Below are positions 4,801 to 27,394 of a stretch of DNA of 64,000 nucleotides, one piece after another. The stretch covers positions 946,278 to 1,010,277 of the forward strand of contig KN832565.1 in NCBI GenBank assembly GCA_000827205.1, written 5' to 3'. The notes beneath the pieces were generated by a model. It did no database searches. It was not told the origin of the DNA and saw only the letters and a program-made list of their open reading frames with translations. How positions within the stretch are numbered: position 1 is the first letter of the stretch; each line of letters begins with the position of its first letter. Source of the DNA: Plicaturopsis crispa FD-325 SS-3. Its lineage: Eukaryota > Basidiomycota > Agaricomycetes > Amylocorticiales > Amylocorticiaceae. The translations under genes and the position numbers were made by a program.

Positions 4801-7800
4801 AGCAAGTTCTTCGAGATGATTAGCCTCCTTCGCTACAACGGCGCGGAAGAGGTCAATCTTGCGAAAAATGATATCAGTAACGGAATATACATTGACGGCT
4901 TGTATATACCTCTGCGTTGTCACTAGGCTCCAGAAGTGTAGGATTGAGTCGACCAGCCAACTTGAGCAATTGTTGCAGAGCAACGTTCGAGCTTGCAGTT
5001 TCTGCTGTTACCCCAAAGGATAAATTTTGCCACAATCCATCGAGCAAGCACTCTTTGGCCCGTTGCATAGATACTTCGTTTCCGCCATCCTTGAGGAACA
5101 AGTGGATGGCCTCCAGAGTACGGCCTTCGGCAAGATGTAGCTCTGCAGCCTCAGCCATTCTACCGACACTCGCAAGCAGAGAAGCACGCTGGACGTCCAG
5201 GTCATAAGCCTCCATAAATTCCAACTCATCTTCGAACGATGGGAAAAGAGCGCTCGCTTTCCTGGAACAAGTGTCATCAGTATGAGCAGTTTGTAGAGCT
5301 GAGCATGTCAAGTCTTACTCCAGCTCGCCACTTTGGAAGTAAAAAAGCCGGGCGACACTGGTAATCCGCTTCGATACGTCGGGCTTCACCTTGGCTTGAT
5401 AAGTCGTGATAACGCTAATAGCATCATCGAACATGCCAATCTTGCGATATTGTAGAGTAGCAGAAGTGTAGTCCTCTGCGTCCACGAACGCTCGGGCCGC
5501 CTTCAGGTCATCCCCGCCTTGCATATAACAATCCGCAGCATTGCGGAAATATGCTGTTTTTTCCTTGTTGGCTTCCTGCGCGCAAGCATGGAAGGCCTCG
5601 GCAGCAACGAGAAACGCAGTCATGCGTTCCGCTGTACTCGATCGGGAGCCTGCCGGCATTGCGCGAGCTTCCTCTCGCAAGTAGTAGGCCTGTGAAACAG
5701 CGACTTCGCGGGGAAGAGAGGCCCTTTCAAAGCAGTGCTTGGCCTGCAAGTAGCGCTTGTTTTGAAATAGGGACCTCCCGGAAGTGGCCCACTCTTCTGC
5801 AGTCGACGATACAGCTAGGTGTGGTACGTCAGTGCCAGGGGTACAGTTTTGAACCAAGTCTCGACTTGTCCAGAATATCTAACATGGATATATATTATCA
5901 GTAGTTTTACCATCATCGACCAGACTGATCATACCCGCATCGGTTCGCTCTTCTCCGAGCTATCCACTATCCACATATTTTTTCGTGCCCTTGTGATTGC
6001 GACGTACAGGAACTTCAGCTACTCGAACTATGATGAGCTATGACGAAACATCATAGGGGAGGATCATTACTTCACTGCAAACACCAGCATGCCTAGTCTC
6101 GCTGAAGCGTGGTGCCGGTGTAGACTTGCGCTGGCTAGCTTCCACTGCGTTGAGCACTACTCGCCACTGGGACAGGTCGACTGTCGAGTCCTGGAAGAAA
6201 TTATACAGAAGGACCTGTCATGGTGTCAGCATTATCCATTATATGCAAATTTGATTCATACATCATTGAATTCTAAGCCCTTGCTCTCGTAAAGTGTCCT
6301 TGGAAAAGATGAGCGGTTTGATACAAATAGGCCGTTTGCACTTACAGTATCAGTCCGATGTCACCAACCTGACCCCGTAATCTCTCGCGAGCGGCATTAT
6401 CGCGTACGAGGATACCTAGAGATGTACGTCAGATCGTCGCACCGCTGGGGCATTATCAACGAAATTGTCTCACACTGTTGGGCACCAAATTCAATCGGAC
6501 TACCTCTGTATAGAGAACCTCAGTGATGATAGTAGCTTTTGAGGGAAGGGACGTACGAGTCTCCAAAGAGAAACTGTTCATATCTGACCGTGTTCTGATC
6601 CCATCCTCCCAGAAATACAGGGCGAAGGCCCTGAACGATGCCTTTTTCTTGTGCTAGTATATCGATAGCATACGGCCAAAATTCGGTTATAAGCTCGATG
6701 ACTGAATGGGCACAGTTGACAATCCCCGCATGAGAACGATAGTTGACGGCGAGTTGAAACGACTTGGGCGGCTCGATAGTCTTCTGAGCGTGATGCGAAT
6801 TTTGCTCCTAGTAATAAAGTACACGTGAGCTTCGATCTCGATATACAATTTACAAACGAAGAATGATTGACATGCCTCGATACGAAAAAGAAATGCTTTC
6901 AGATCGTTGAACCTGAATGAACTGCCTATCGAAATCGTTTGGGCTGTATCCCCGGCCCAGAAAAGTCCATCGGGGTTCCGACACAATTTACGTAGAACTG
7001 AATGGAAAAGATTAACAAGTGTCGTTTAAGATGTATGAGATGACGCACGCAAAGCGTCAATCAGCAGATTGTCCTGGGCCTCGTCGACATAGCTTCCGAA
7101 GGGATAGTTTAGTCGGTTGACTACAAGACTTGATAGAGCCGACATACAGATAATCGATAAGACGGGGCAGAAGGCCCGGCTCTTGCAGATGTTTGAGGAT
7201 GGTGTGTGTTCTGTAACAACGTAAGCCGTACGCAACAATTTCCTACACTGTAGGCTAACCTGTCTGCAGCATCATAGTCATTGCGCCCTCGCTTGCGCTT
7301 GAGGTACACCTGAAATAAGCCGTATATGAGATCCCGTTGTGTAGCGAAAGTCGCCTGGGTACGGTGACTGAGGTTGTCGTATGCATCCTTGTCCAAGTAG
7401 CATTCGGGATGAGCTAGGGCTTGCTCTGACCCTTTGATGACACCTGGAAGATTGTGAGACCAGGGCTCAAATTTGACTGAGCAGCAAATCCATACCCATG
7501 AACTCGCTATACACAAGGGAGGGGTCTGAAAACAAATCCTCGTCAGAAGGGGTAGCGATAACTTAAAACTCGATCAGTACCTAGATTTTTTATAAGAGAT
7601 TGGGGGAAGTGTGGCCAGTATGATTGGAAAAACACATCATACGAGACCATGGATTGACCTCCTAGAGCGAGACTGAGGTCCACGCCCGATTGGAGTGACA
7701 CGCTCGGAGATGAAGGTTCATTGCTCTCATCATCATTGAAAAAGAGCCTCGTCGAGCTCGCCGCTTGAGAAGCCGACTGAATGTCAGCCTCTATCAGCTT

Positions 7801-10636: not shown

Positions 10637-10645
10637 AAGGCTTAG
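10637..10645. repeat. Left 9-bp target-site duplication (AAGGCTTAG) of the DUF6589-RecQ element
   Basis: AAGGCTTAG lies directly outside the left terminal inverted repeat. It recurs in the same orientation directly outside the right repeat at 27386-27394. The match is exactly 9 bp, and the next bases differ on both sides. Confidence 0.93.
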
Positions 10646-10746
10646 TAGTCTCGGATCCAGCCGTTTTCGGAGTTTCAAAACCCAAGACACAGAACCTCCT
10701 ACAACGTCTGGTGCACTGTGTAAGGGACACCCCCGCGCAGGTCACA
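10646..10746 (+). repeat. Left terminal inverted repeat, 101 bp
   Basis: Begins TAGTCTCGGATCCAG. It is identical over 101 bp to the reverse complement of 27285-27385. Inward of this the two ends stay weakly alike (ATCACG...CCAAAA) and then diverge. It ends about 350 bp upstream of the DUF6589 ATG and contains no full gene. Confidence 0.93.
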
Positions 10747-13264
10747 TCAGGGGTATCACGCTTCCAAAACGGTGTATTTTGTTACGGTGACACTCCTTAA
10801 CGAGTTATACGCCCCTATCTGGAAGCGCTACGCTACGCTCACTCTTTGCTTTGCAAGTCATTGACTGCACGAAGGCATGCCACGAAGACATGTCATTCCT
10901 GCCTTAGAGTATACGTGAAAACAAGAGCATATGCCCTTTGAAAGAGGTGTCTTTCAAGTCAGTTCTGGAGTGAATTCTATTGCAATCAATGTGGGCTTTC
11001 TTTGCTAAGCAGACTCTGGCTCTTGGAAAAATTGGTGACCGTGTTTTCGTATCAAAAACAACACTCAAAAGCGATTATTATAGCTCTATCCTATATGTCT
11101 GAACCACTTGCACAAGAAGATACCGCGGAAACCAGCCAACCAGCTTGGGGAAATATATTTCTTCATGATGACTCCGAGGATCCAATGGCTCGAGAAGAGC
11201 CCGAAAGCGACAGCGACTGCAGTAGCGACGACGACGACGATTCGGACTACGACCCGGACGCTATGGACGTGGACGAGGAGAGTGACGAAGGTGCAGAGGA
11301 GGTGCGAGGAACTGTGCCGTATCACGAGCACACGGAGAGGCGAAGAAAGCGGCTATCCGAGGACAGACAGCGCAATGAATTGGCCGGTAACCCTGTCGAA
11401 ACAATCCCAACGAAGGTCGCAAGAGTTCTATACACATTGGACGTCCTGGGCCTCGACTTGCCAATTTTTCTGGACGCGCTAAGCTGGGGCGGAGACGAGA
11501 ACTATGGCTCCGGGACGCCGTCCGAGGCACGCTCGATCCAGTACGCGCGCTCGTCGCTGCTGCATAGCAAAGAGCTGCCCGGGATTCTGGAGCGCTGGTG
11601 GAAGCCGCCGCGCTCGAAAAAGTCGAAGAGATCGAGGCCGAAAGGAGCGAAGACCAGTATGGAGGCATTTGCAGTGAAGTGCGTGGATAGCGTCCGCGAA
11701 CGGGAGATGAAAGGTGTCGCGGAGCTTCTCCGATCGCCGTCGGGCGAGGACTTGAAGGAGGAGACCCTGACGAGCATTAACTTCGATGAGATGGGCGAGG
11801 AAATCCGGGCACGCGCACCGACAGTCTGGACATTGTTGCGAGGAGCCGCATACAGCGCTAAGCAAGAAAAACGAAACAAGATGAAAAATCCTGATAAAGT
11901 GCGTCGAATGGTAATTGCTTACCGTGTAGCGCTAAACCAGCTGCGCTAGGTTGTGCTCATGACAATCGCGATGCTGGCGTACACGCGAAATCATCGCCAT
12001 GGTCGCATGCAAAAGATGTTCGCGGTGTATCTGAAGTTTCGTGGACTCTCAGCGAAGGCTTTCGACACTCTCCACGCACTCGGAGTTACAATGAGTCATA
12101 AATGGACATGCAATGCCGTCGAGACCATGTCTAAGAACGCGATGACCGAAGTCGTCAATATGATTCAACAACATCCCTTCTTTATCTCGCATGATAACGT
12201 CAACATACCGTTTCGTGTGTTCTCCCAGCGGCTCGACAATAAAGGAGAATTCGGAAATGGTACCGCTGCGACTGTATATGTCAAAAGGAACGCTAAGCAG
12301 CTGCCAAAAGACGAGAATCGAAACTTACAGGAGACGCGCGCGGAGGGGTTGAAGAAGCCGTTGGAGATTCTCGAGATCATGGAGATGGACCTCGAATCAG
12401 CCGGGCGCATACAGGACCGCATGTGCGACGAGGTCCTTCAGTTCCTCATCGGATCGCCCGAGTTCGACTTGAAGACATACGTGCACGGGGACAGTGCCCT
12501 TCTTCAGCGGCTTCCTGCCGTCCGTCCGCTTCCATGTGGTCCGGAGAACATCACACTGCAGTATATGCTGGGGACGGTCGATATCCCCGAGGCTAGCTAC
12601 GCCGATAATGACCGTCTGCTTATCGAGTGGCTCCGGCAGCTGAGAAAGGATGCGCCCGATGAAAAGAGACGATTAGCGCTCGAGCAACTCATCGTGTGGG
12701 TAGGCGATCAGCTCACCGTCGATCGTATTCGAGGGCTTTTCAAGGCTCGTGCTGAGGATCTAAACTCCTACGACCGGATGGACTGGATAGTGCCAGCGTT
12801 CGGGTGGCTGCACCTCGAGATGGCGGTCGAGAACTCCATACACAAGCAGTACCTTGGTACATCATCGGGCAGGGGTCTAGCACACGATTTCGCAGTCCTG
12901 GAACGAAAGGGATTGTCGTCAGTGCTCACGAAGGGGCCGTTCCATCACAATCTCCAAGAAGCACTCTACCACATCGCAGAAGCCCATATACGTATCGATT
13001 TATGCATGGTCGCCGGCGTCTCTGACCTCAAAGAGCTCCGCAAGAAGTCGCCGGAAGAGCTGGTAGAGTTAGCGAGGGCTGTTGTTGAAGAGCACGCGTC
13101 CACTGCAGCTATCGACAAGATTAGCCACGGTACATCGGAGGACAAACAAGACGAAATCAAGAGGCAAACCATTATGTTCAACCGCGATGTTCTCCAGTAC
13201 ATCGTCCTGGATCACGCTATCAAACACGGCGACGTTGGGATCATGGAGGACTCTTTACCGCAAC

Positions 13265-13269
13265 TTTTG
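13265..13269. repeat. Target-site duplication TTTTG, left of the Gypsy element
   Basis: TTTTG immediately before the TG of the left LTR matches TTTTG at 23440-23444 immediately after the CA of the right LTR. Five bp is the usual Ty3/Gypsy duplication length. Confidence 0.93.
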
Positions 13270-13470
13270 TGTTAAGGGGTGATTTAGAGTCCTTAGAATC
13301 ACACCTGTAGCTTAACGGGTCCAATCTCTAAATGATATTAGGATGGATGCGAATGAGCGTAGGTGGATGAGGATGCCCGCATCCGACCCAACGGCTCATG
13401 AGCATAACTACAAGCGAACAAATATATGTAAATACGCGCCACAGGCGCGCCACGATCCACGTCCGTTACA
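13270..13470 (-). repeat. 3' LTR of the Gypsy element (201 bp)
   Basis: Starts TGTTAAGGGG and ends CGTTACA on the plus strand. It is identical base for base to 23239-23439. It is the 3' LTR because the genes read leftwards and the polypurine tract is next to it. Confidence 0.93.
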
Positions 13471-13481
13471 CCCTCCCCCTC
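13471..13481 (-). other. Polypurine tract of the Gypsy element
   Basis: GAGGGGGAGGG on the minus strand, directly adjoining the 3' LTR, as expected for the plus-strand primer of reverse transcription. Confidence 0.8.
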
Positions 13482-13661
13482 AGGATGAGACCCTAGGATC
13501 AGCCGAAATAGCAAAGTTCTGTGCAAAATTTTTACGCGGTAGTTGAATACCGGTAGGGGTTTACGACCCTGACGCCGACATGTAGCGTTTCTGCCACCAT
13601 GCCTAAGTCCTTTCGATGGTAAGCAACACCAGTTGATGGTGTGCTGAGAACTTCCCCACAC

Positions 13662-16076
13662 TTAGTTGGGGCCCTGCTGAGGGTCGTGATCCACGGCCAT
13701 AGCCGCTTGAGAACGCGGTGACCGTGGCGACGCTACGCCGGGGTGCGATGGTTCGGGAGGGGGGTCGTCGGTCAAGAATACCGGCGCGACGAAGCCCGGG
13801 AATGCTCGTATAGCGGTGTGGTATCCGGGAATGCGGCCCTGCATGCGTTGCACCGTCGACTGCAAGTCTGTGAGACCTGCCGTGAACGGTGCCGCGTCGG
13901 TAGGGTGGCGGCCGAGGCGCATGTTGCGACGTGAGCGCGCGTAACGCTCGATGCCCACGTAAAGGGGTAGTTGGGGGTCGCCGCCGTGCATGCGGATCCA
14001 GAAGGCGATGTGGGCATAATTCGCGTTTGACGCGTCGATTGGGTAGGGAGCCGGAGTCAAGCCGCCCAGCGGGTATTGCCCCTGTGCGACTATCCATCCG
14101 TACAACCCAGGGATAGAGAAAAGCTCGATCGCCTGCTCTCTGAAGAGAGAGTGTTGGCGATCCTGGTTCGAGCTACGAGAATGGGATCCAGGCGGGGTGA
14201 ATAGACGGAGTATGTGGACGGCGTCGACATCCGACATACGCGGGGTCTGCCTTGCTAGCGGACCCGCGGGCAGAGGTAGGATGTCGGGCTCGGCCCTCAC
14301 TCCAATGGGCCACTGGGATGGTGGCACATTGTTGCAATAGTGATAGAACAATGCGTCATTGCTCATCTCACGCAGTGCTGTGATTTCGTTGTCCCCCTCG
14401 ATAGCTATGGCATCGTGGGGGCGCACCGTTGCCGCCGAAGAGCTCGATCCTGCTGTCGACGTAGTCGATGCCGGAGGGCCCACCGGCTGCTGAACGTTGG
14501 CGGGGGAGGGAGTACGCGGCGGGGGGGCGTGGTCATCGGTGCCGGACTGCATTGGCGACGCCCCACCCATCACACGCGTCTGCTCGTCGTTGTACTCCTT
14601 GATCCGCTGACGTTTACCACGCACTTTCGTGCTGGTCTCGTCGGGGGCCAAGGTGTGGCGATTGATGCGGCGCACAGCCGCGTTGCGACGATTGCGACCA
14701 TCCTGGCAGTACTTTTTGTACCACCGGAATAGCTGCTTGGCCGCAACATCGCCACCCACGGCCTGGCGATACAGTTCCGCGCCTTCGCGTTCTGTAACCA
14801 TGGGGGCGTCAGCCCACTTGCCCAGCTCGCTCCGCGGAAGTGGTTCCAGCGGCACGAGCGGGGTTTTGTTGCGCCTTGTCCAAGCCTGTTGGACGCGCGC
14901 ATTCTCCTTGAGCTCCGGGTTCATGCGCGCGTCGTCCGAGACGTAATCGTCGTCGGGGTACGAGTCCTCGCCGTCGTCGTCGTCATCATCGGTGGCGATC
15001 ATGTCGCGCCGCGAGGCTTCGTCCCGAGCGATGCGTTCCGCGTTCCGGGAGCCAGACGAACCCGCGGTGTGAGCAGGGCTCTGCACCGACGACGTCGCTG
15101 GTCCGGAGGGGACGCCTGAAGCGTAGGGCACGCGCGGGCCAAATGGCCCCACAGAGGTGGCCAGCGGGGCTGAGGGAGCATGCTGGGAGCTCGACAGCCC
15201 TTGGGCTGACGAACTCGCGGCCGCCCGTGTACTCGCCGAGTGCGGTTGCGACGCCATCTGTGCTGCCCATTGGTTCAGCCCAGGGGTCGGCGCAATCGGT
15301 CCAAACGACTGCTGAGGGGGCTCGGGGGAGTGGCGAGCCTTTTTGCCCTTCCAACCGTTGTCGGGGGCGGATATGGCCGCGGGGCCCTTTGGCTGCTGCC
15401 GTCGATTAGACTGGCCGGAGCGTATGGGGCCCGCTTGCGACTGCCGCGATCCCATGGGGCTTATGGAACGAGGCGGTTGAGGAGGTGGAGGAGGGTACGG
15501 CGACGGTCGGGGGTTCCCACTCGACACCAGCTCTAGCTCGAGTCTGTCGACGTGGGTCGACAGCGTTCGAAGCTTAGCCTCGAGCGTGGTATTGTGGGAT
15601 ACCGCGTCATCCCGCTCCTGCCTCAGTCGGGAAACCATCTGTTGCAGGCGATGGCTACGTAGCCGAGAGGCCTCTAACATCCGGTCCATTTCGGACTCGG
15701 CTGCAGAGGCCCGCTCTGCTTCGCGCCGATCGGCGTCGGGTCCCCCTCCCCTCTCGTGGCGGCCGTCAGGACGCCATGTCGACGCCTCCAAGCCTGCCCC
15801 GGGCGACGCATCACGCATCTCTGCGTCAGGCGCCGCGGGTGCCGGCTGTGGAGCGCCGTACGGCGGATACGCGTACGGGAAGCCGTACGGTGGGTATGCC
15901 GGCGCGGGCGCGTAGGGGCCGCCTCCATGTGGGAACGAGGGCGGCGGTGGGTAGTATTGTGGGGGCGGCCAAACCGGCGCCGCGCCCTGCGGGACGCCAT
16001 ACGACTGGAAGTCGTAGGAGCCCTGCGGGGCCGGTGGGCGCTGGTCGGCCTGGTTGTTTTGCGAGTTGTTGGGCAT
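13662..16076 (-). CDS. Third ORF of the Gypsy element, unknown function, 804 codons
   Basis: An uninterrupted ORF with a true ATG (16074-16076), 283 nt downstream of the pol stop. The first 90 residues are rich in Pro and Tyr (YPPPPSFPHGGGPYAPAP). A predicted coiled coil spans about residues 125-195 (LRQERDDAVSHNTTLEAKL). Low-complexity Ser/Pro sequence and an Asp-rich run (DDDDDDGEDSYPDDDY) follow. A folded-looking C-terminal region contains FWIRMHGGDPQLPLYVGIERYA. I see no membrane segment or signal peptide, so an envelope protein is unlikely, and there is no zinc knuckle. Similar proteins occur near Gypsy elements in mushrooms from memory, without assigned function. How it is expressed is unclear; a separate or spliced transcript is possible. 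Confidence 0.75.
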   Translation of the reverse strand: MPNNSQNNQADQRPPAPQGSYDFQSYGVPQGAAPVWPPPQYYPPPPSFPHGGGPYAPAPAYPPYGFPYAYPPYGAPQPAPAAPDAEMRDASPGAGLEASTWRPDGRHERGGGPDADRREAERASAAESEMDRMLEASRLRSHRLQQMVSRLRQERDDAVSHNTTLEAKLRTLSTHVDRLELELVSSGNPRPSPYPPPPPQPPRSISPMGSRQSQAGPIRSGQSNRRQQPKGPAAISAPDNGWKGKKARHSPEPPQQSFGPIAPTPGLNQWAAQMASQPHSASTRAAASSSAQGLSSSQHAPSAPLATSVGPFGPRVPYASGVPSGPATSSVQSPAHTAGSSGSRNAERIARDEASRRDMIATDDDDDDGEDSYPDDDYVSDDARMNPELKENARVQQAWTRRNKTPLVPLEPLPRSELGKWADAPMVTEREGAELYRQAVGGDVAAKQLFRWYKKYCQDGRNRRNAAVRRINRHTLAPDETSTKVRGKRQRIKEYNDEQTRVMGGASPMQSGTDDHAPPPRTPSPANVQQPVGPPASTTSTAGSSSSAATVRPHDAIAIEGDNEITALREMSNDALFYHYCNNVPPSQWPIGVRAEPDILPLPAGPLARQTPRMSDVDAVHILRLFTPPGSHSRSSNQDRQHSLFREQAIELFSIPGLYGWIVAQGQYPLGGLTPAPYPIDASNANYAHIAFWIRMHGGDPQLPLYVGIERYARSRRNMRLGRHPTDAAPFTAGLTDLQSTVQRMQGRIPGYHTAIRAFPGFVAPVFLTDDPPPEPSHPGVASPRSPRSQAAMAVDHDPQQGPN

Positions 16077-16358
16077 TGTGCTGGTGCAGACGCAAAGCGG
16101 CGGCGGTGGTGTGGTGGGAGTAGGAAGGAGAGGACAAAAAATGGCGAGGATATTAAGGGCTCGAAGTGAAAACTTCGAGCGCTTAAACTCTCCATTGTCT
16201 CGGGTCCGATCGAATTCCGCAACAATGCCGAGTCGATGCCGCGGCCTGGGCTGCGGTTATCACCGGCACGTCACCTGATCCACATGACCGAACGCGACGC
16301 GACTTAAGTGTGCGGAAGCTGTCTCTCGCATAGCACCTGTCGTGCATCGTTAGCTACC

Positions 16359-19300
16359 TCATTTCGAGGCAGCTTTGCGCGGCAGCTTCTGCCACTTGTC
16401 GACCCCCATTAATTCCAGATAATCATCGAGCGCCGACAGTTCATCGCAGCTCGATAATGGCTCCCAGCTATGGTCGCCGTGAATCCAGTGTATTAAGAAT
16501 GTGATTTTCTTGCCCACCCACTGATGGCCGGCTATTTCTTGGACCCGCCACTCCTCATCGTCAGGAGTGCCGAAGTCGTAGGGTTTACGAGATTCTCGGC
16601 CCGGGAATAGCAAGTCATCATTGGGCTCGAACGCGCGCAGAAGGTTCTCGTGAAATGTGGGGTGTATACGGCGAGCAGTCATCTCCGCAGGCAGGTCTAG
16701 CGTATACGTAGACGTCTCCGGAAATGCCGCAGCCACCGTGTACGGGCCAATGTATTTCGGCGCGAGCTTTCGCGCGCGATCCTTCGGCAAGTTCAAGTTC
16801 ACGGTGGACAAATAAACTTTGTCCCCCACAGAAAATGGCGCGATCACCGCTCTGCGCTTGTTAGCCTGAACGGTGGACCGCACGCGTGCCTCTATAATTG
16901 AGTCATGCGCCATTTCGAGGTGCATACGAGCCCGGAGTGCGAATTCGCGAACTCCTGGGTACTTCGCATCGGCGTCGCGAAATGGGGCCATACGGGGCAT
17001 GTGGCCGTAGTTCAGTTCAAATGGAGCGAATCCCGTTGAACTGCTAATGCTCGAGTTAATTGCAAATTCGGCCAGTGGTATCATGTCCAACCAGTCCGAT
17101 TGGTCGGACTTGACCATAGATCGCAGTATCTGGCCCACATTACGGATGGCGCGCTCTGACGCCCCGTCCGTTTGTGGGTGAAATGACGTGGACATCAGTA
17201 GTTTCGTGCCCGTGAGTCGGTGAAGTTCCTGCCAAAATTTGGCCGTGAACTTAGCGTCTCTATCGGACACGATACTCTCTGGGATCCCATGCAGTCGTAC
17301 AATATCCCGCAGGTAAAACTGGGCCAGTTCAGCGGACGTGTTGCGCACGCTAAGGGGCACCAGGTGTACCATGCTGGTTAGCCTGCAGATGACCACCCAC
17401 AAGTAATCAAATCCTCCGGAAGGCGGGAAGGGGCCCACGAAATCCATGCCGACGGACCGCCAGGGTTCCACCGGTATGGGCATCGAGTGCAATAGGCCCG
17501 CCTTCGGTTGATTGCTCGTCTTGGATGTCAGACAAGTTTCGCAGGATATGCAAAACTTTTCGATGTCCTTCCCGATACGAGGCCACCAGTACCAGCGCCG
17601 GATGTACTCCGACGTCTTCTGGTACCCAAAGTGGCCGAGAATCTGGTGAGCTTCCGATATAATAATCTCCTGCAGCGTCCTCTTGCCATTCAACGATCGC
17701 GGCACGCATAAACACTCAGAGCCAAGTCGGCTCTTAGTGTATATGAGGCCATGAGCGACTCGGAATGAGGGGAACGCTGCCGGGTTTGCGATTATCTTGG
17801 AGAACAAGTTATCGATAGCGTACCCAGCCTTAATGGCCGGCAGGACCGTCACGTCGCCCTCAATTCGAGGACGCAGTGCTGGGCCTGCTTGCAGAGCGTC
17901 GGCTAAGCTGATATGGCCATCGGTGTGTGGTACTGCCCGTACCGCGCTAGCGGCTAACTCATCGGCTTCCAGTACTCGGGCCTCAACGCCTTCGAGTACT
18001 CGTCGCGCATGTATGTCAGCCGTTGGCAAGCGGGTGCGCAGTATCTCATCGCGTCGTATACCTGGCAGATCCTCGAGATCGGGGTCCAGGCGCACATCGG
18101 CGTTCACATAGTGCTCCATCGGCTGAACCTCGTCGGCTCTGTCGTTCTCGTAGTATCGAGACAGGCAGTCCGCGACTTTATTTATTTCACCAGGGATGTG
18201 CGTGATCTCGAAGTCGAATGGGGAGAGGTACTCGTCCCATCTGACTAATCGACCATTGCGCCCATCCCGTGCGACCGTTTTTATTGTCGTCAGTGCCTCA
18301 TGGTCGGTGACGATGTGGAACTTCCGACCAATCAATTTATCCTCCCATTTCAGCAGCGCCTCGATAACTCCCAACGCCTCGTGCTCGTATGTCTTGTACG
18401 AACGCTGAGCCGCAGTGAATTTCTTGGACATGAACCCCGCCGGGCGACAATTACGCCAGTCGGGGCCTTGACCATAGAAGGCGCCGGTCCCATACGGACA
18501 TGCGTCGACTACCACCCAGATGGGATCAGGGTTCTTAGGGTCAATAGGTCGCAAGATCGGTGTCTTACGAGCTATGTCCTTTATCCTGTCCATACACACT
18601 TGGTGGAACGCGCGCCATTGAAACGGCTGGCCGTTGCGGCACATCGTCTCCAGGGACGATGTATAAGCCGATACGTCCGGCATGAAGTGCGCAATGTATT
18701 GCACGAGACCAACAAATCGTTGGACTTCGTTCAACGACCGCGGGGCTCGCCATTCAAGAATGCGCGCCATTTTGTCGCTGTCGGCATGCAGGCCGGCATC
18801 GTCAATAACGTGCCCAAGGCAGTCCATTCTCTCCGAATATATATCACATTTCTTCCGGCTAAGGTGAAGTCCCTCGCGCTGGAGAATATCCGATATAATT
18901 CGCAGATGTCGTTCATGATCCTCGATGCTATCTGAGTATATGAAGATATCATCGAGGTATACATGTACGAAGTCGGACAGGTATTCACGGAATAGCCAGG
19001 TCATCAGGCGCTGGAACGTAGCAGGGGCGTTACAATCACCCTGCTGCATTACATGCGAGATGGCCGTGCCAAACGTTGTAGCGAATGCCGTCTTCCACAC
19101 ATCATCAGGATTGACACGAATTTGTTCGTAGGCGTCCGACATATCGATTTTGGATCGATATTTCGCTCGCGCTACGTCCATTCGTATCTGATCCTGGTCG
19201 GGAAATGGGGTGACGTCCTTGAACGTGTTATCGTTGCGCTGTCGCGCATCGACGACCGTCCTCAGTCCGCCGTCCTTCTTGGGGATACACAAGAGGGGTG

Positions 19301-19907
19301 CGCACTGAGAGGCAGGCTTCATTTCCCACCAACCCGCGTCCACATAGCGATTCATTTTATCGCGAAGTGGCTGTTTGAGGGCGTCAGGACACCTAGGTAA
19401 ATGGTACGTGTACCTCGCGTTCTCGTCGATGAGTGGTATGTTGTGCACCACATCTCGCAGAGGCGGGAGTTCCAGAGGTAACGGTCCTAGTATATCTGCG
19501 CATCGCTCAAACCAGCGGGCGCGAAGCCCAGGTATTTCAGGCGCTGAGTACGTTATACGCTCCCCGCGCTGAACTGCCTGTGCTCGCAATTCCGCTATAA
19601 ATGCTTCGTTCAACCCATACGGGTCTTCGTGACCGAACACATCCCTCGGCACCTCAAATTGAGTGTGCTGTGTGGGCGGTGCCGGTTCCGCGATGACAGG
19701 TATTTGGGCGGCTGTCGCCTGAGTCCTCGATCCGTGGAATCGTGGAATGGTATCATACGATGCTCCGGGCACCGCATTTTTGCTAGTCAACTCATCGGCG
19801 ATGAGTTCATCTAGCAATATTTCCGCGTCGTCGTTTTTCTTCACCGGGTCATCGGCTGCATCGGGGACGTCCTCCACCGATGCTCGCCGGGAGCGCGCGG
19901 GCTCCAC
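16359..19907 (-). CDS. Gypsy Pol: reverse transcriptase, RNase H, integrase, chromodomain
   Basis: An open frame of 1,182 codons. Reverse transcriptase covers about residues 190-370, with the catalytic YLDD in VYLDDIFIYS. RNase H covers about 450-570 (VVVDACPYGTGAFYG, HEALGVIEAL, VTDHEALTT). The integrase has an HHCC finger near 750-800 (HFGYQK...CETCLTSK) and a DDE core with MDFVG, SDRDAKF and TDGASERAIR. A chromodomain-like end reads FLIHWIHGDHSWEP, marking a chromovirus. The frame is the same as gag, separated from it by one TGA (19932-19934). The codon at 19907 is GTG and the first Met codon is about 185 residues in, so Pol is probably made as a Gag-Pol fusion. Confidence 0.95.
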   Translation of the reverse strand: MEPARSRRASVEDVPDAADDPVKKNDDAEILLDELIADELTSKNAVPGASYDTIPRFHGSRTQATAAQIPVIAEPAPPTQHTQFEVPRDVFGHEDPYGLNEAFIAELRAQAVQRGERITYSAPEIPGLRARWFERCADILGPLPLELPPLRDVVHNIPLIDENARYTYHLPRCPDALKQPLRDKMNRYVDAGWWEMKPASQCAPLLCIPKKDGGLRTVVDARQRNDNTFKDVTPFPDQDQIRMDVARAKYRSKIDMSDAYEQIRVNPDDVWKTAFATTFGTAISHVMQQGDCNAPATFQRLMTWLFREYLSDFVHVYLDDIFIYSDSIEDHERHLRIISDILQREGLHLSRKKCDIYSERMDCLGHVIDDAGLHADSDKMARILEWRAPRSLNEVQRFVGLVQYIAHFMPDVSAYTSSLETMCRNGQPFQWRAFHQVCMDRIKDIARKTPILRPIDPKNPDPIWVVVDACPYGTGAFYGQGPDWRNCRPAGFMSKKFTAAQRSYKTYEHEALGVIEALLKWEDKLIGRKFHIVTDHEALTTIKTVARDGRNGRLVRWDEYLSPFDFEITHIPGEINKVADCLSRYYENDRADEVQPMEHYVNADVRLDPDLEDLPGIRRDEILRTRLPTADIHARRVLEGVEARVLEADELAASAVRAVPHTDGHISLADALQAGPALRPRIEGDVTVLPAIKAGYAIDNLFSKIIANPAAFPSFRVAHGLIYTKSRLGSECLCVPRSLNGKRTLQEIIISEAHQILGHFGYQKTSEYIRRWYWWPRIGKDIEKFCISCETCLTSKTSNQPKAGLLHSMPIPVEPWRSVGMDFVGPFPPSGGFDYLWVVICRLTSMVHLVPLSVRNTSAELAQFYLRDIVRLHGIPESIVSDRDAKFTAKFWQELHRLTGTKLLMSTSFHPQTDGASERAIRNVGQILRSMVKSDQSDWLDMIPLAEFAINSSISSSTGFAPFELNYGHMPRMAPFRDADAKYPGVREFALRARMHLEMAHDSIIEARVRSTVQANKRRAVIAPFSVGDKVYLSTVNLNLPKDRARKLAPKYIGPYTVAAAFPETSTYTLDLPAEMTARRIHPTFHENLLRAFEPNDDLLFPGRESRKPYDFGTPDDEEWRVQEIAGHQWVGKKITFLIHWIHGDHSWEPLSSCDELSALDDYLELMGVDKWQKLPRKAASK

Positions 19908-19931
19908 TTTAGTCGAGACCGCGCCGTCCCG

Positions 19932-22900
19932 TCAAGCCGACGCTGGTCGCTCTGGCGCCTCCACGTCCCAAGGCTTACGAGGAGCAGGGGGCCGCTTAGC
20001 GACAAGTGCGTTTTCTTCGGTGAACGATAGTGTATGTAGCATCACGTCACCAATGCGCACACAGTTGTTCCCGAAGTCCAAGCACACATTGTGCGAGTTC
20101 ATAAAGGGTGTCCCTATGATGCAGTCGTAGCGATCCAAGTTGACTATGTCAAAGTATACTTCCTCGGCAATGCCGCCGAAGTTTACTGGGACCTTGGTGC
20201 CATAACTGATCTTGGAACGGCTACCCACGCAACCCAACTGCAGGGTCACTTGCTCGTCCAGTGTTATGCGTGGTGCTTTCGTCACCCGCGCAAACTCTGG
20301 CGTTATCGAGTCAGTGGTGCTCCCTGAGTCGAACAGCGTGTATGCCTTCACGCCATTTATCTCAACCTCAGCAGCGAGTGTCGTCTGGGATCGACCGTCG
20401 CGGTGAGGTTGCACCGTATCACCGGTGGATTTGCGGCGGCCAACATTGGCTGAATGTACCATGTTCGCGGCGCGAATGTGTACCACCTCGTCGGTAGTCC
20501 GCATTGCACCAATTCGAACATGACGCTCTGGAAGGGGATCGTCGTTGACCGAGTTCGATTCCTGTTCGGATTCGTACTGGGATCCCCCCCATGAGTTATG
20601 GTCCTCGTCTTCAAATTCCCGCTCGTATTCTTCCCCAGTGTCCACGTCGACTAGTCGCTGAGCGTTTAGTCGACGTGTACCCGGTACTACCCGCTGACTG
20701 TACTTGGGGCACTTGGGGTCATTAGCGTAGTGACCCCGAATCCCGCATGTAAAGCAGTCGATGTTTGTCGCATCCCGAGGTGGGCGCTTAGTGAACTCAC
20801 GGGTAGCCGAAGGCTGGGCCGGAGTCGCTGTCGGTTTCGCCAGCGCATCCGCAGCCGCGTTGCCGTCCGGTCGAACACGGGTCACAGGAACAAATCTAGT
20901 TCCAGAGGTCGAGGGTAGGGCCCCACTCACCGTACTCCTAGACGAGCGGAGTAGCGGTATGGACTGCTCAATCTGCCGAGCATTCAGGCGTAGGTCATCC
21001 AAGTCCGAATGCTCCGCCGACAGCCCTCGATGCTCGATCAGTTTATTATATATCGACGTCGGGAGTCCAGCCATAAAACGACTGCGCAGCATGTACTCCC
21101 CTGGGTATTCCACCATTCGGGAGGCATACTTGAGCAGCGTAGTATAGAATCCGTCAACGCCGAGCGCGGCGGTGTACTTGCATGCGTCAAAGTCGTCTGA
21201 CGCCTGCTTAGCCGTCGCGCTGTTGACGAATCGCCGCAGCATCATGCATATAAGTTCGGGGAACTTGATGATCCGCGGGCGAAGTCTCGGGTTGAGTACT
21301 TCACGCGTGAGCCACTCGCTGGCGTTACCCGTCAGGAAATTCGCGAGCAAGTCACTCCGGATCTGATCACAAGCGTCACCACACAGGTTATGGCTTCGCA
21401 GCCACGCCAAGTATGAGGACAACCAGGATATGAACGTGTCATAGTTGTCACTTCCGTCGTACGATGGAGGATCTTTCAACTTGGGTTGCTTGGCGCCCGA
21501 TGGTAAGGGCGCCAGTGCATGCCCAACTTGAAGATCTATCATGTCACGGATGTCTTCCAATAACGATGCGTGATGTTCCACATAAGATGTCTCGTCGCGA
21601 GTGCTGCGGCCGGCTTTCGTTATGCTCGAGCCTGCCCTAGCACTCGTATCATCCGGACGATAGTATGGGTACGACGCTCGCTGAGATACACTGCTACTAG
21701 TCACGGGTTGTTGCCCGCGAATGTAATCGCGTTCATCGCGGCTGTATTCAATCCCGTCTGGTAGAGGGGATGGAGTACGATTATCCGCGAATCTCACCGC
21801 GGCCGAAGTTGCTCTTCTACTAGTTTGCGACTCCGCCCGCCGGGCGTTCGTGTTGCTGCGTCCCCAAGATTCCCGCGATTGCGCGGCCATCTTGTGGGCG
21901 GCATCTACACGTCCTTGAAATTGTTCAATAGTTTCTGCAGGTCCCCTGGGAGCTACTTCTCGGTCAATCTCCTCTCGCAACCCCGGGGAGCGATCAATAA
22001 TCACATCCGCGGTTGGGGTAGGCGATCGCTCAATGATAGCCGCTACCGGGTGAACCGGCTGGTGTTGTGGCAGTTTGCCTGAGAACAGCAGTCGCAGTGA
22101 GCGCTCAGTTTCACCGGATTCCCTGAGATGACGCAACGTGTCGTCGATCGCCCTATTGGTGCGAGACTTCAGGTCGTTGATCTCAAGGTTAGTGTCACTG
22201 AGAGCTTGGTATACGCCACGCATATTGCTCTCGACTTTGGAGACGATAGCACCATGCGTGGAGTGTAGTTGAGCCGACGTACGGAGATGACGACGCAAGA
22301 ACGATTGATCATTAGACACTTGTTTAAGTGCGCTACGCTGATCCTCGTTGAGCGACTGCCAGAGCTCCGCCAGTCGAGGGGACAAAGCGTCCGTCTCAGA
22401 TGTTTCGCCATATTCCTCAGCAGGTCTACTCACCCCGAGGTCCGGTGCTAGCGAGTTTCCTCGTCCAGCTAACGGCGACGGCGGGGTGGTCAGTACCTCA
22501 CGACTAGCGCGGGTATTGGACCTGTCCAGGTGAGGTGGCGAATCGTATTGCGAGATGTCTCGTCGACCAGTCGGGGGTGTACGAATCGTCCCGTGTTCGT
22601 GCGTTGAACTACCCGTAATCGGGTAGTTCGTACTCGATATCGGTGACTCTTGCACACTCATGGTTTCCTCGATCGTCGACAGTGTGGGCCGTACCGCCTG
22701 TGGCTGGTACGGGGTACTGCTGTACGGCTCGCGGGACATCGCTGACTGCATGTACAAGTTCGTACCTGCCGTCGCCGGTGCCTCCGTGCTCTGGTCAAAC
22801 AGTTCTGGTCGCTGGTCCGAATTCAGACCAGAGGCCATCCCTGCTTGTCGCCGAGATGGGGGTTCGTCCGACTGCAATGACCGTCGCCAATTGCCTTCAG

Positions 22901-23117
22901 ATCCTTGCCTCGCGTGCTCGGTCTCTTCAGGAGACTCCGCGTGGCGAGGATGGGTTAAATTTGATGAGAAAGCGCCCGAGGCTGCAGCCGTTCGGGCGCT
23001 ATCGCCATTTTGGGAGTCATCAGCTTCTCCCGCGGCCTCGGGGAACGCGCGTGTCGCGCCTCGAGGCTCGCGGCCAAGTTGCTGTCCCTCGGGGTTCGTT
23101 CTAGGAGATTCGGGCAT
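19932..23117 (-). CDS. Gypsy Gag with zinc knuckle and retropepsin-like protease
   Basis: The frame is open from 23192, but the first ATG is 23115-23117 (MPESPRTNPEGQQLG), so this start is chosen. A helical region lies near 22100-22400 (LRTSAQLHSTHGAIV). A retrotransposon Gag domain follows near 21200-21500 (LKDPPSYDGSDNYDTFISWL). A CCHC zinc knuckle (CFTCGIRGHYANDPKCP) lies near 20705-20757. A retropepsin-like domain with the active-site motif FDSGST lies near 20320-20340. The gene stops at TGA 19932-19934, followed on the coding strand by CGG and an open frame into pol. Confidence 0.92.
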   Translation of the reverse strand: MPESPRTNPEGQQLGREPRGATRAFPEAAGEADDSQNGDSARTAAASGAFSSNLTHPRHAESPEETEHARQGSEGNWRRSLQSDEPPSRRQAGMASGLNSDQRPELFDQSTEAPATAGTNLYMQSAMSREPYSSTPYQPQAVRPTLSTIEETMSVQESPISSTNYPITGSSTHEHGTIRTPPTGRRDISQYDSPPHLDRSNTRASREVLTTPPSPLAGRGNSLAPDLGVSRPAEEYGETSETDALSPRLAELWQSLNEDQRSALKQVSNDQSFLRRHLRTSAQLHSTHGAIVSKVESNMRGVYQALSDTNLEINDLKSRTNRAIDDTLRHLRESGETERSLRLLFSGKLPQHQPVHPVAAIIERSPTPTADVIIDRSPGLREEIDREVAPRGPAETIEQFQGRVDAAHKMAAQSRESWGRSNTNARRAESQTSRRATSAAVRFADNRTPSPLPDGIEYSRDERDYIRGQQPVTSSSVSQRASYPYYRPDDTSARAGSSITKAGRSTRDETSYVEHHASLLEDIRDMIDLQVGHALAPLPSGAKQPKLKDPPSYDGSDNYDTFISWLSSYLAWLRSHNLCGDACDQIRSDLLANFLTGNASEWLTREVLNPRLRPRIIKFPELICMMLRRFVNSATAKQASDDFDACKYTAALGVDGFYTTLLKYASRMVEYPGEYMLRSRFMAGLPTSIYNKLIEHRGLSAEHSDLDDLRLNARQIEQSIPLLRSSRSTVSGALPSTSGTRFVPVTRVRPDGNAAADALAKPTATPAQPSATREFTKRPPRDATNIDCFTCGIRGHYANDPKCPKYSQRVVPGTRRLNAQRLVDVDTGEEYEREFEDEDHNSWGGSQYESEQESNSVNDDPLPERHVRIGAMRTTDEVVHIRAANMVHSANVGRRKSTGDTVQPHRDGRSQTTLAAEVEINGVKAYTLFDSGSTTDSITPEFARVTKAPRITLDEQVTLQLGCVGSRSKISYGTKVPVNFGGIAEEVYFDIVNLDRYDCIIGTPFMNSHNVCLDFGNNCVRIGDVMLHTLSFTEENALVAKRPPAPRKPWDVEAPERPASA

Positions 23118-23238
23118 GCCGAATCGTGTTTTGGGTGCGTTTGGTGGGTTTTTGTATAATCCAAACGCGATTTGGGCGCTTGTAGAGTCCAAATGTCGAG
23201 TAGAAGCTCGAGTTTTCGAGCAATGGCGTTAAAAAAAG

Positions 23239-23439
23239 TGTTAAGGGGTGATTTAGAGTCCTTAGAATCACACCTGTAGCTTAACGGGTCCAATCTCTAA
23301 ATGATATTAGGATGGATGCGAATGAGCGTAGGTGGATGAGGATGCCCGCATCCGACCCAACGGCTCATGAGCATAACTACAAGCGAACAAATATATGTAA
23401 ATACGCGCCACAGGCGCGCCACGATCCACGTCCGTTACA
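23239..23439 (-). repeat. 5' LTR of the Gypsy element (201 bp)
   Basis: Identical to 13270-13470. Because the element reads leftwards, this copy should contain the promoter. An AT-rich CATATATTT stretch lies inside it on the coding strand. Confidence 0.93.
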
Positions 23440-23444
23440 TTTTG
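23440..23444. repeat. Target-site duplication TTTTG, right of the Gypsy element
   Basis: Second copy of the 5-bp duplication. The DUF6589 reading frame resumes in phase immediately after it. Confidence 0.93.
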
Positions 23445-24109
23445 TTCCGCTTTCAAGGCAGCGGTCAGTCAAACTATGCGACGGAGATCCTGGAGCTGCT
23501 TCAAAACTTGCGGAGGGAATGGCCAGAGGAACTACGGTACGGCAATCGTTCAATCTCCGAGACACAACCACTGAACGAATATGCATACCTTCAACAGCGA
23601 GTTCGTCATAACAAACTGCTGGCTTCTCAATTTTGGGGGACGACGGGACGGGTTTGTGCCAGTAGACATGGCACAGGAGCACAATATAAAGGATATCAAA
23701 GTCAGTCACTCGCAATAATCCTATGCAGGCGGAGGTAGCTGAGCTGCTGTAGGTAACGTACCACTCGGAAGGGCCAAATATCGACTGGGCCTATTTGAAG
23801 AAGATGCACCCTGCCGTGCGCATAATTCGAGCACTGTCGCAGCACATGGAGCAGGACTTTGGAACCCTGAACCGAGGCAACAAACACGGCATACCTAAAA
23901 AAGACCGAGACGTCAGAAAACTACAAGACTCGTATCTAGCTTCGCGCACTCACGAAACATATCCAAATGGACGCAAGGCTAAATCAGAGAATCGCGCACT
24001 CGATGTCGTGAATGTAGGCTGCATTAGTCTGCAAAACGGCGACAAAATGAAGGAATGGATTAGTGGCCGAAGCTTCAGAAGGTCAATGCAACAGAAGTGG
24101 AAGGAATGA

Positions 24110-27100
24110 TTATTTCGATGTTCTGCCGTGTCCATAAGTATTTGTATCGGTGTAGTTATCTAGGGCCCCAGGCATTCCAAAAGCGAGCGTGATGCCGGGA
24201 TTGTTAGACGTTGACTCGGAAGCGCTCGAATTTGTGGAGGGTGAATGGGGCGAAGGATGCTGCGCAGGTGATATTGAATAGTCGCCGGGAAATGCATTGA
24301 GCGCATACGACAAACGAGAAACGGGCGGCGAAGGATGGCCGTATGGATATGGATATGGTTGAGAGTTATACACTAACGCGCCCGGTGTCGTTGGAGAAGT
24401 GGCGGCATGAGGCGCTCCCGAGAAGAAAGGTAATGGCATAGGCAGGTAAGGCATTGGGTACTGAGCCGCGAAGGGGTGCCGGTTGGAGGAAATAGGCGAC
24501 GCAAATGCGACGCCAGATGGTGACGGTGCAGACGAGGAAGAACTCTCGCTCAACGAGGCCGGAAGATAGGGATGAAACGGTGGTGCGCGCTGGCTTATGT
24601 ACGCTGGGCTCGGGGGAGTGCCATACGAGTTCGCCGGATTACTATCCTGTACATGACGAGCAAGGTCAATCGACGAATTGAATGACAGAACTAAAATAAA
24701 GGTGCTTACCTGCTGAGCCTGCTGAGCACGAGGCGTCGAAGTCCCCATGTTGAAGGTAAACGAGCCAACAAGTGTGGAGGAAGCTGGCGCTCGAGCGGCA
24801 TCACGTATCGCGGCACGCTCGTCCCTCTTCCGCGCACTCGCTGCTAGCCTTTGCTCCCTTTCCTTTTCCTTCCTATCGGCCGTGGCTTGCTTTTTCTTTG
24901 CACTCTTCTCAGCTTTGGCTTGCTCGAGCGCCGCTTTCCTCGCCACGTCAACACGCCGAATAACCTCAAGTACCTCCTCGCCATGCTTCTTAGCGAAGAT
25001 CCACGGTGTCTTGAGCGCCAGCAAGTCGTCGACGGTTTTCAAGGAGGTTTTTGTCGCTAGCGCCGTAAGAGTCGGGTCGGGGAGAATTGCGGACGTCGCA
25101 AACGAGCTCGGTGAGTACATGTCGCGTTTTTTGCGGTAGCGCCAAGTCTCGAGGCACGCACGGACATCCTTCAGGTGGTCACCCCGGCGATTCGACGGGC
25201 GCTTTGGTTGGCTCCCCATGGGTCGTTTGCCGTTGACGTTCAGCATCGTCGATGGCTTGGAGTGTCTTCCAATGGCCCGCGACCTGCGCATACCCCGCTC
25301 GCCTTCGCTGCCGCCGTCGTCTGATTCAGACGAGGACTCGGCGTCTTCGTCATCGGTGGGATCCCCGTAATCGTCGTCTGATTCGTCTTCATGATCTCTC
25401 GAGGTGCCCGGATCTAATTGCTCTGAAGCCCGGAGTCCTTGACGAGCGACATCTTCAGCCGTCTGCATGCATCGGTCGCAGCAGGCACCGGTAGGGGCTA
25501 CAATCTTCGATCAGTCCCCGTAGTCTCCAAATCCAAATCACTGGCACTCACCCTTTCGCGGACGAGGGCTATCGAAATACTCGTCTGATACATCCCGGCG
25601 ACAACCAGGCGCCTGGATCCACCTGCGAAACGGCTCCTCCACTTTACGCGCCCATACCTTCCCATCATCCTCGATCGGATGTTGGCGCCCTTGAATTTCG
25701 TTCGGAGATGGGTCCACGTTGGTAGATTGCACGGTCTCGTCCTCAGTGCCAGCGCCTTCGTCCTCAGCATTCACGATGTACATCGCGTCGTCGCCAGCCT
25801 CGCCTTTCTTTCTCTTCCTTCGATGAAACATGGATTCTTCGACTAGTAAATAGACCGAAGCGTGCACGCCAGGTGAGCGCCCCGCACGACCGGCGCGTTG
25901 GGTCCATATTGATAACGATTTGCAGAGTCCAAACTGAATGACGCGTGTTATATTGGGTATATCGGCACCCTGTCATATTGATGAGTACGGAATTGAACAA
26001 ATATGAGATATACTGAACTCACCATGCCTGCTGCCTCCGTCGCCACCAGAATCTTGACCACACCTTTCGAAAACCGCTCCATCACATCCTCTTTGGCAAA
26101 CTCCGTTCGCCGTGAGCTCAGGCAGTCGATAGCATCGTGGAAATCATTCGGAAACCAGCTCCGGATTTCTCGCACCAAGTGCTGCGTGGACGCGACACTG
26201 TCGATGTATACGACGGTCTGTTCGAGGTCTTCGGGGGAAATAACGCCAGTTGTAATGAGTCGTTTGAGTTCCGTATAATCGTTTGTGCTTTTGATGCGGA
26301 TGACCGTCGGGGTGAGGTTTGGGCGATCGTTTCCAAGATTGAGAAAAAAGGACTTGGGGAGGTCGATATTGAGCTTCATGCAAGTCTCAGTAAGAGCAGC
26401 TGAGGGCAAGGTTGCAGACGTAGCAAGAAAAGGTATGTGCGTGGGTACAAAAGCACGAAACTTCTCAACAAGAGAATACTTCGGACGGAATTCCCCGCCC
26501 CACTGTGAAATACAGTGGCATTCGTCGATTATGAATGCGGTAATCCTTTCCGCATATGCTTTCGATCCAAGTAGCTCCCGTATTGCAGGATTCTCCAAGC
26601 CCATCTCTGGAGACAGCAAGATGGCACGCCACTTGAGGTCCTTCAATTCCTGCCATCGATGATGATGTGAGAGAGACCATGAGGCTCGGGTCTGATGAAA
26701 CGACTGCTGTATTATGTACATACCTGATGCAGTCGCTCATTCCACGTTTGTTTGTTCACAGGTACTGCTGCAATCCCCATCTTCTCAAACCGCGCTGCCT
26801 GTCAACCACATTGAGACTGAGTGCAAAAAGTAGAGGCTCCTTGGGCACACACCATGTCTTTCTCAAGGATGTTGAGAGGGGAAATGATGACGACAATCTT
26901 GGTCTTGTCATGTAGCAGCGGCATCATGAATGGCATCGTTTTGCCCGCACCGGTCCCTGCAATAACCACCGAGTCGAGTCCGAGAAGAAGCGCTTCGGTG
27001 ACATCGACTTGCCATTCATGAGGCGCAGATCCAAAACGATCCGTAAAGGCTTTGCGAAGGGCTTCCCGAGTTGTTGCTGATGCATAACCCCGAGCCTGAG

Positions 27101-27176
27101 TAGCTGTCTCGCGTGCAGCTTGAAGATTATCATGAGAGCGTTTGAGCCGGGCATCGAGGGCAGGTTGTTGAGCCAT
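24110..27176 (-). CDS. RecQ-like ATP-dependent DNA helicase carried by the transposon
   Basis: A DEAD/DECH-type helicase of the RecQ group, several exons with short introns. ATG at 27174-27176 (MAQQPALDARLKRSHDN), 109 bp inside the right inverted repeat. Walker A is IAGTGAGKT. Motif II lies in FIIDECHCISQWG, motif III in ATSATL, and motif VI is QRAGRAGR. A zinc-binding patch (ACCDRC) lies near 25480. The C-terminal part holds an HRDC-like helical segment (LLALKTPWIFAKKHGEEVLEVIRR), a basic coiled coil and a long Pro/Ser/Tyr-rich tail. No break was found, in contrast to its DUF6589 partner. It converges on that gene with zero bases between the stops. A role in transposition is inferred from the context; RecQ proteins generally unwind DNA 3' to 5'. 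Confidence 0.88.
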
Positions 27177-27284
27177 GGACAGATATGTATTCACGCAGAA
27201 AACAGTGAAAATATTCGACGCGGCGCTGCGACGCGCTATCACGTGGATTAAATTAATGCCATTTTTGGGACGTGATGTTACGAT

Positions 27285-27385
27285 TGTGACCTGCGCGGGG
27301 GTGTCCCTTACACAGTGCACCAGACGTTGTAGGAGGTTCTGTGTCTTGGGTTTTGAAACTCCGAAAACGGCTGGATCCGAGACTA
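27285..27385 (-). repeat. Right terminal inverted repeat, 101 bp
   Basis: Perfect reverse complement of 10646-10746. It lies upstream of the RecQ gene and probably contains or borders its promoter. Confidence 0.93.
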
Positions 27386-27394
27386 AAGGCTTAG
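27386..27394. repeat. Right 9-bp target-site duplication (AAGGCTTAG)
   Basis: Direct copy of 10637-10645, immediately outside the right inverted repeat. Confidence 0.93.

Follow-up and report, generated by a model that had tools for sequence, protein, structure and literature searches.

DUF6589 and RecQ-type helicase genes paired in a probable AcademH-type transposon of Plicaturopsis crispa

Two genes lie between perfect inverted repeats

We analyzed a 64,000-nucleotide stretch of the genome of the fungus Plicaturopsis crispa FD-325 SS-3 (contig KN832565.1, positions 946,278 to 1,010,277), hereafter the window. It contains a 16.7-kb segment (10646-27385; C12:956923-973662 in genome coordinates) with a gene for a DUF6589 protein, a gene for a RecQ-type helicase and a nested retrotransposon. 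An earlier note, made from the letters alone, had described this segment as a two-gene DNA transposon with 101-bp perfect inverted repeats and a 9-bp duplication immediately outside them, and our analysis confirmed this layout. The left and right arms are identical at 101 of 101 positions, and the extended arm match covers 127 nt at 91%. The sequence AAGGCTTAG abuts both outer ends; among lengths of 2-14, 9 was the only one that matched. In Pfam, the gene on the plus strand matched DUF6589 (PF20231, 3.8e-77) and the gene on the minus strand exceeded the cut-offs for PF00270 and PF00271. The two genes are convergent, with stop codons that abut at 24109/24110, and the features of the element are as follows.

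10637..10645, no strand: left 9-bp target site duplication, AAGGCTTAG
10646..10746, plus strand: left terminal inverted repeat (TIR), 101 bp, starting TAGTCTCGGATCCAG
11095..11949, plus strand: DUF6589 gene, N-terminal exon region, with an acidic stretch and an open frame whose first ATG is at 11095
11950..13269, plus strand: DUF6589 core as far as the retrotransposon, with candidate Asp codons at 12193-12195 (HDN) and 12706-12708 (GDQ)
13270..23439, minus strand: nested long terminal repeat (LTR) retrotransposon
23440..24109, plus strand: remainder of the DUF6589 gene past the insert, in several exons, with Glu codons at 23484-23486 (NYATE) and 23677-23679 (AQEHNIKDIK)
24110..27176, minus strand: RecQ-type helicase gene, in several exons, with DEAD and Helicase_C domains
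27285..27385, minus strand: right TIR, 101 bp, same as the left
27386..27394, no strand: right 9-bp target site duplication, AAGGCTTAG

The retrotransposon interrupts the DUF6589 gene such that the second Asp motif lies before the insert and the later candidate Glu residues lie after it. For the helicase, the closest solved structures to the homologous piece from another copy in this genome (L009) were WRN and RecQ. Read by eye, the window helicase also carries a CRR...CCxxC stretch, which we take to resemble the zinc site of RecQ.

Long TIRs and 9-bp duplications would also suit a Mutator-like element (MULE). However, in Pfam scans of the element's open reading frames (ORFs), only the DUF6589 and helicase domains exceeded the cut-offs outside the retrotransposon and no MULE transposase was found, which agrees with the earlier remark that the protein does not resemble those of Mutator-like elements. 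No MULE is known to have a RecQ partner, and we give this explanation almost no credence.

Copies with intact ends are flanked by 9-bp duplications

Searching the P. crispa genome with the repeat gave at least 23 matches at 12 or more places. The 12 places comprise three full-size copies (the window copy, L009 at 6.5 kb and L017 at 8.3 kb), eight short copies (L010-L016 and L018) and one single end (L019). Except for L012, L018 and L019, which are without an intact second end, all copies of the window repeat (9 of 9) carry exact 9-bp duplications, more than chance would yield; the copy at C5:37259-43760 is flanked by AGATCATAC. Exact 9-bp duplications also flank L057 and L058, which belong to a distant lineage, and L067, L068 and L070, short copies with ends that match those on the right of locus L053. 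In these five, 9 was again the only matching length in the range 2-14. With related lineages included, each of the 14 copies that retain two intact ends had a duplication of 9 bp (10 kept from an initial 11, L053 having been dropped, plus L057, L067, L068 and L070), as expected if the duplication length is a fixed property of the element. Ends were sought at 10 of the 20 near-complete DUF6589 loci described below, and five yielded a clean pair; L053, L054, L055, L056 and L071 did not. The TIR ends vary by lineage (TAGTCTCGG, TAG[A/G]CTCG or CAGGCTCC).

Within the window copy the terminal repeats are identical over all 101 positions, as they are within L009, a pattern that fits recent movement. 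Three of 11 joined sites were searched for empty counterparts. The joined flanks at the window element and at L009 each matched their own locus only, and those of L053 matched short repeat copies, with no clean empty site among them.

The eight short copies share with L009 and the readable part of L017 only end sequence, at most about 140 bp per end. Since nothing but the ends is common to them, they are probably non-autonomous copies that moved in trans.

Several loci had irregular ends. An apparent 9-bp duplication at L053, CAAGGCCTT, was rejected as a palindrome within a longer inverted repeat (104-239 / 7203-7339). L067, L068 and L070 show that the true ends of the L053 lineage start with CAGGCTCC, and the left end of L053 itself has been lost. 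These three (on C3, C8 and C15, respectively) are short hairpin-like repeats starting CAGGCTCCTAACC; they are probably related to the L053 element and non-autonomous. At L055 (C6; 953-1046 and 7982) the left end is rearranged, with two TIR ends 42 bp apart that face outward from each other. The 9-mer GATAGCCAC after one left TIR end is the reverse complement of GTGGCTATC after the right end, as would be seen if part of the element had flipped.

A helicase gene accompanies near-complete DUF6589 genes

A DUF6589 profile gave 56 matches in the genome, which we assigned to 20 near-complete loci and six fragments, with one match below threshold. In searches with two helicase proteins, a helicase gene on the opposite strand adjoined 18 of the 20 near-complete loci. 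At the other two, L017 and L071, the helicase gene was seen only in part, at its beginning; the ORF at 6810-7421 of L071 is identical to the L057 helicase at 107 of 135 residues. The helicase therefore stands beside DUF6589 at all 20 near-complete loci (two in part), which supports the earlier proposal that the pair is a mobile unit. It was paired with none of the six fragments.

The gene order is convergent at 17 loci and divergent at three (C14, C15 and C1:2473893). In the lineage of L057, L058 and L071 the two genes lie head to head, and L057 and L058 have unlike ends (TAGACTCGTAACC / TAGGCTCGATATATCC). Four helicase loci without DUF6589 nearby (C3:1689978, C28:55924, C6:1124183 and C2:325412) are perhaps host or relic genes.

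DUF6589 is predicted to have a DDE-transposase core

The structure model of DUF6589 (predicted local distance difference test, pLDDT, 90) contains a DDE-transposase core. Its best structural matches were the Hermes (hAT) and P-element transposases, with Transib and RAG1 also among them; all share with DUF6589 a DDE core that carries a large helical insertion, at about 10% identity. A sequence search of the PDB with the DUF6589 alignment returned one match, which was not a transposase (E 0.81). Despite the similar fold, the duplications differ: hAT and P elements generate 8 bp and Transib 5 bp, whereas we found 9 bp throughout. Neither these three transposases nor RAG1 are known to have a RecQ partner.

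HDN, GDQ and a later Glu had been proposed as acids of an RNase H-fold transposase, and the model, the structural matches and conservation all argue for the two Asp motifs. In the alignment, numbered by the modelled protein (P0006), column D241 is Asp in 51 of 53 rows (with one Asn and one gap) and D412 is Asp in all 53. For the third acid, a conserved Glu is indeed present, and the proposal can be refined to two candidates. E612 (NYATE; codon 23484-23486) is Glu in 53 of 53 rows. E656, in a QE(H) motif (codon 23677-23679), is Glu in each of the 44 rows with a letter, the remaining nine being gaps. In a second group of proteins, 103 have YxxE, and 54 of these have a QE no more than 70 residues after it; many of the others end earlier. 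We counted back from the last aligned residues to what we take to be the catalytic glutamates of Hermes (E572), the P element (E531) and RAG1 (E962). As this count, which assumes gapless alignment, lands at 656, 657 and 654, we prefer E656, with E612 as the other candidate. On this evidence DUF6589 is very probably a transposase with a DDE-like fold, from which we infer its chemistry and exact acid triad.

Both genes are under purifying selection

When the window copy was compared with L009, the 440 codons of the transposase core gave a ratio of nonsynonymous to synonymous substitution rates (dN/dS) of 0.039, and the N-terminal exon of DUF6589 one of 0.165. Three helicase exons gave 0.069, 0.085 and 0.095, and the helicase tail 0.167; the comparison of L017 with L009 was saturated, and a value for the C-terminal exon, taken in a wrong frame, was discarded. 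By these sequence comparisons both genes are under purifying selection, so that both proteins were maintained while the window copy and L009 diverged. The synonymous divergence (dS) between the same two copies was 1.0 in the transposase core (11950-13275) and 0.22-0.24 in two helicase exons (within 25948-27176). This roughly fourfold contrast hints at recombination between copies.

These results bear on whether DUF6589 and the helicase might be passengers or host genes that happen to lie between the repeats and are mobilized by a transposase encoded elsewhere. The ends-only short copies suggest that ends can be moved in trans, as this would require. However, the pair recurs at every near-complete locus, across lineages with different ends, the fold of DUF6589 is transposase-like and selection has acted on both genes, leaving the passenger explanation with very little probability.

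The element is best explained as an AcademH transposon

The Academ superfamily is counted among the DDD/E superfamilies (PMC9587614, in the part available). According to passages of PMC10045372, AcademH elements make duplications of 9 or 10 bp and AcademX elements of 3 or 4 bp, a difference tied to a helicase in the former and a nuclease in the latter. Fungal Academ copies encode DEAD/DEAH and recQ_fam domains, and annotations frequently list them as genes of the host (sections of PMC6416283). AcademH is described as low-copy in Basidiomycota, Ascomycota and Mucoromycota (cited in an excerpt of PMC10799480), and putative non-autonomous MULE and Academ elements have been reported from a mushroom, Marasmius oreades (portions of PMC8290104).

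Because AcademH in fungi is reported to be marked by a helicase and by duplications of 9 or 10 bp, we file the element there. The AcademH lineage was reportedly defined by Kojima in 2020, in Mob DNA 11:15. AcademH elements are expected to have terminal inverted repeats, and those of the window copy are perfect over 101 bp. The predicted core with its conserved Asp motifs and candidate Glu would supply the DDD/E transposase, and the helicase and the 9-bp duplications were found wherever loci were near-complete or ends intact, respectively. Thus, the window segment is very likely an AcademH-type DNA transposon, with DUF6589 as its DDE transposase and the RecQ-type helicase as a constant partner. 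For this assignment the element was set against AcademH by its described features. The two are alike in fungal host, in being DNA transposons, in the helicase and in the duplications, and no difference was established. AcademX would then belong to the same superfamily, with a nuclease in place of the helicase.

The earlier note had suggested an undescribed superfamily, in which DUF6589 would be a DDE transposase unrelated to Academ, and the helicase and the 9-bp duplications would have been gained independently. In its favor, the name DUF6589 was not found in the literature searched, the comparison with AcademH was one of described features, and the TIR ends are unlike between lineages. Against it, the helicase, the 9- or 10-bp duplications and the fungal host given for AcademH in the parts available of PMC10045372 and PMC6416283 are all present, and it is less likely that another fungal lineage came to have them all independently. 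We consider a separate superfamily unlikely. A fuller version, to which we would give an equally small chance, places DUF6589 elements in a superfamily of their own near the hAT/P and RAG-like enzymes, with GxxH for C/DxxH. The RecQ partner, joined independently, would make excision or gap repair a copying step, and mushroom genomes would hold very many unrecognized copies annotated as host genes.

We also considered Kolobok elements with a RecQ helicase. Kolobok elements duplicate TTAA, in contrast to the 9 bp seen at 14 of 14 copies here. In the sections available of PMC9587614, KolobokH, known only from fungi, encodes a DDD/E transposase and a RecQ helicase, as does Kolobok-1_CCri from a red alga, in which the RecQ gene lies on the complementary strand, as in the window element. 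That source also places the KolobokH helicase downstream of the transposase domain and gives the group a C/DxxH motif, which in DUF6589 is replaced by GxxH. Membership in Kolobok is therefore highly improbable.

Starting from what the sequences display (the ends, the fixed 9-bp duplications, the gene pairing and purifying selection), we can outline how an AcademH element of this kind might move. The DUF6589 protein would bind TAGTCTCGG-type ends and, by analogy with DDE enzymes in general, would cut them by hydrolysis and transfer them to target cuts staggered by 9 bp; gap filling after joining would create the 9-bp duplications. The helicase probably serves to unwind DNA, either at the ends or in the gapped product. 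Whether it would serve in end melting, protein clearing or gap repair is the least certain part of this scheme, along with the choice between cut-and-paste and a copying route. In the window copy the presumed transposase gene is split by the retrotransposon; a related copy without the insert exists.

DUF6589 relatives are found in many fungi

Two protein searches, each covering the roughly 8,000 best-sharing candidates, identified 376 and 448 relatives. Judged by the nearest named DUF6589 relatives, the host of the window element is agaricomycete-like. Among the 120 relatives listed per search, all those named by organism were fungal, including Amanita, Mycena, Schizophyllum, Boletus, Trametes and Ganoderma. 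No animal was named among the 120 listed of the 376 or of the 448, which does not exclude animal relatives, and none of the 33 stretches of viral contigs that fitted a pattern was a relative. A DUF6589 protein of Ganoderma boninense (P0070) carries the public name 'Type 1 capsular polysaccharide biosynthesis protein J', which is probably wrong.

In the genomes of many mushrooms, DUF6589 proteins are entered as hypothetical genes. If DUF6589 is the AcademH transposase, such genes are mobile DNA rather than host genes, and gene counts need correcting. We did not find a link between DUF6589 and a transposase in the literature searched, although it may be in print elsewhere; this link, a candidate third catalytic acid and the two gene orders are what our analysis adds. 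The model supplies candidate catalytic acids, and copies that have both genes and perfect repeats make the role of a transposon-borne RecQ helicase tractable to study.

The nested retrotransposon

The retrotransposon that splits the DUF6589 gene is 10.2 kb long. Its LTRs (13270-13470 and 23239-23439) are identical over 201 bp, and its target duplication, TTTTG, lies at 13265-13269 and 23440-23444. Three coding regions were identified.

19932-23228, minus strand: gag/protease
16359-19931, minus strand: reverse transcriptase/RNase H/integrase
13662-16256, minus strand: extra ORF of 864 aa between pol and the 3' LTR

The element is of the Ty3 type, and its gag/protease and pol regions share one frame, with one stop between them (19932).
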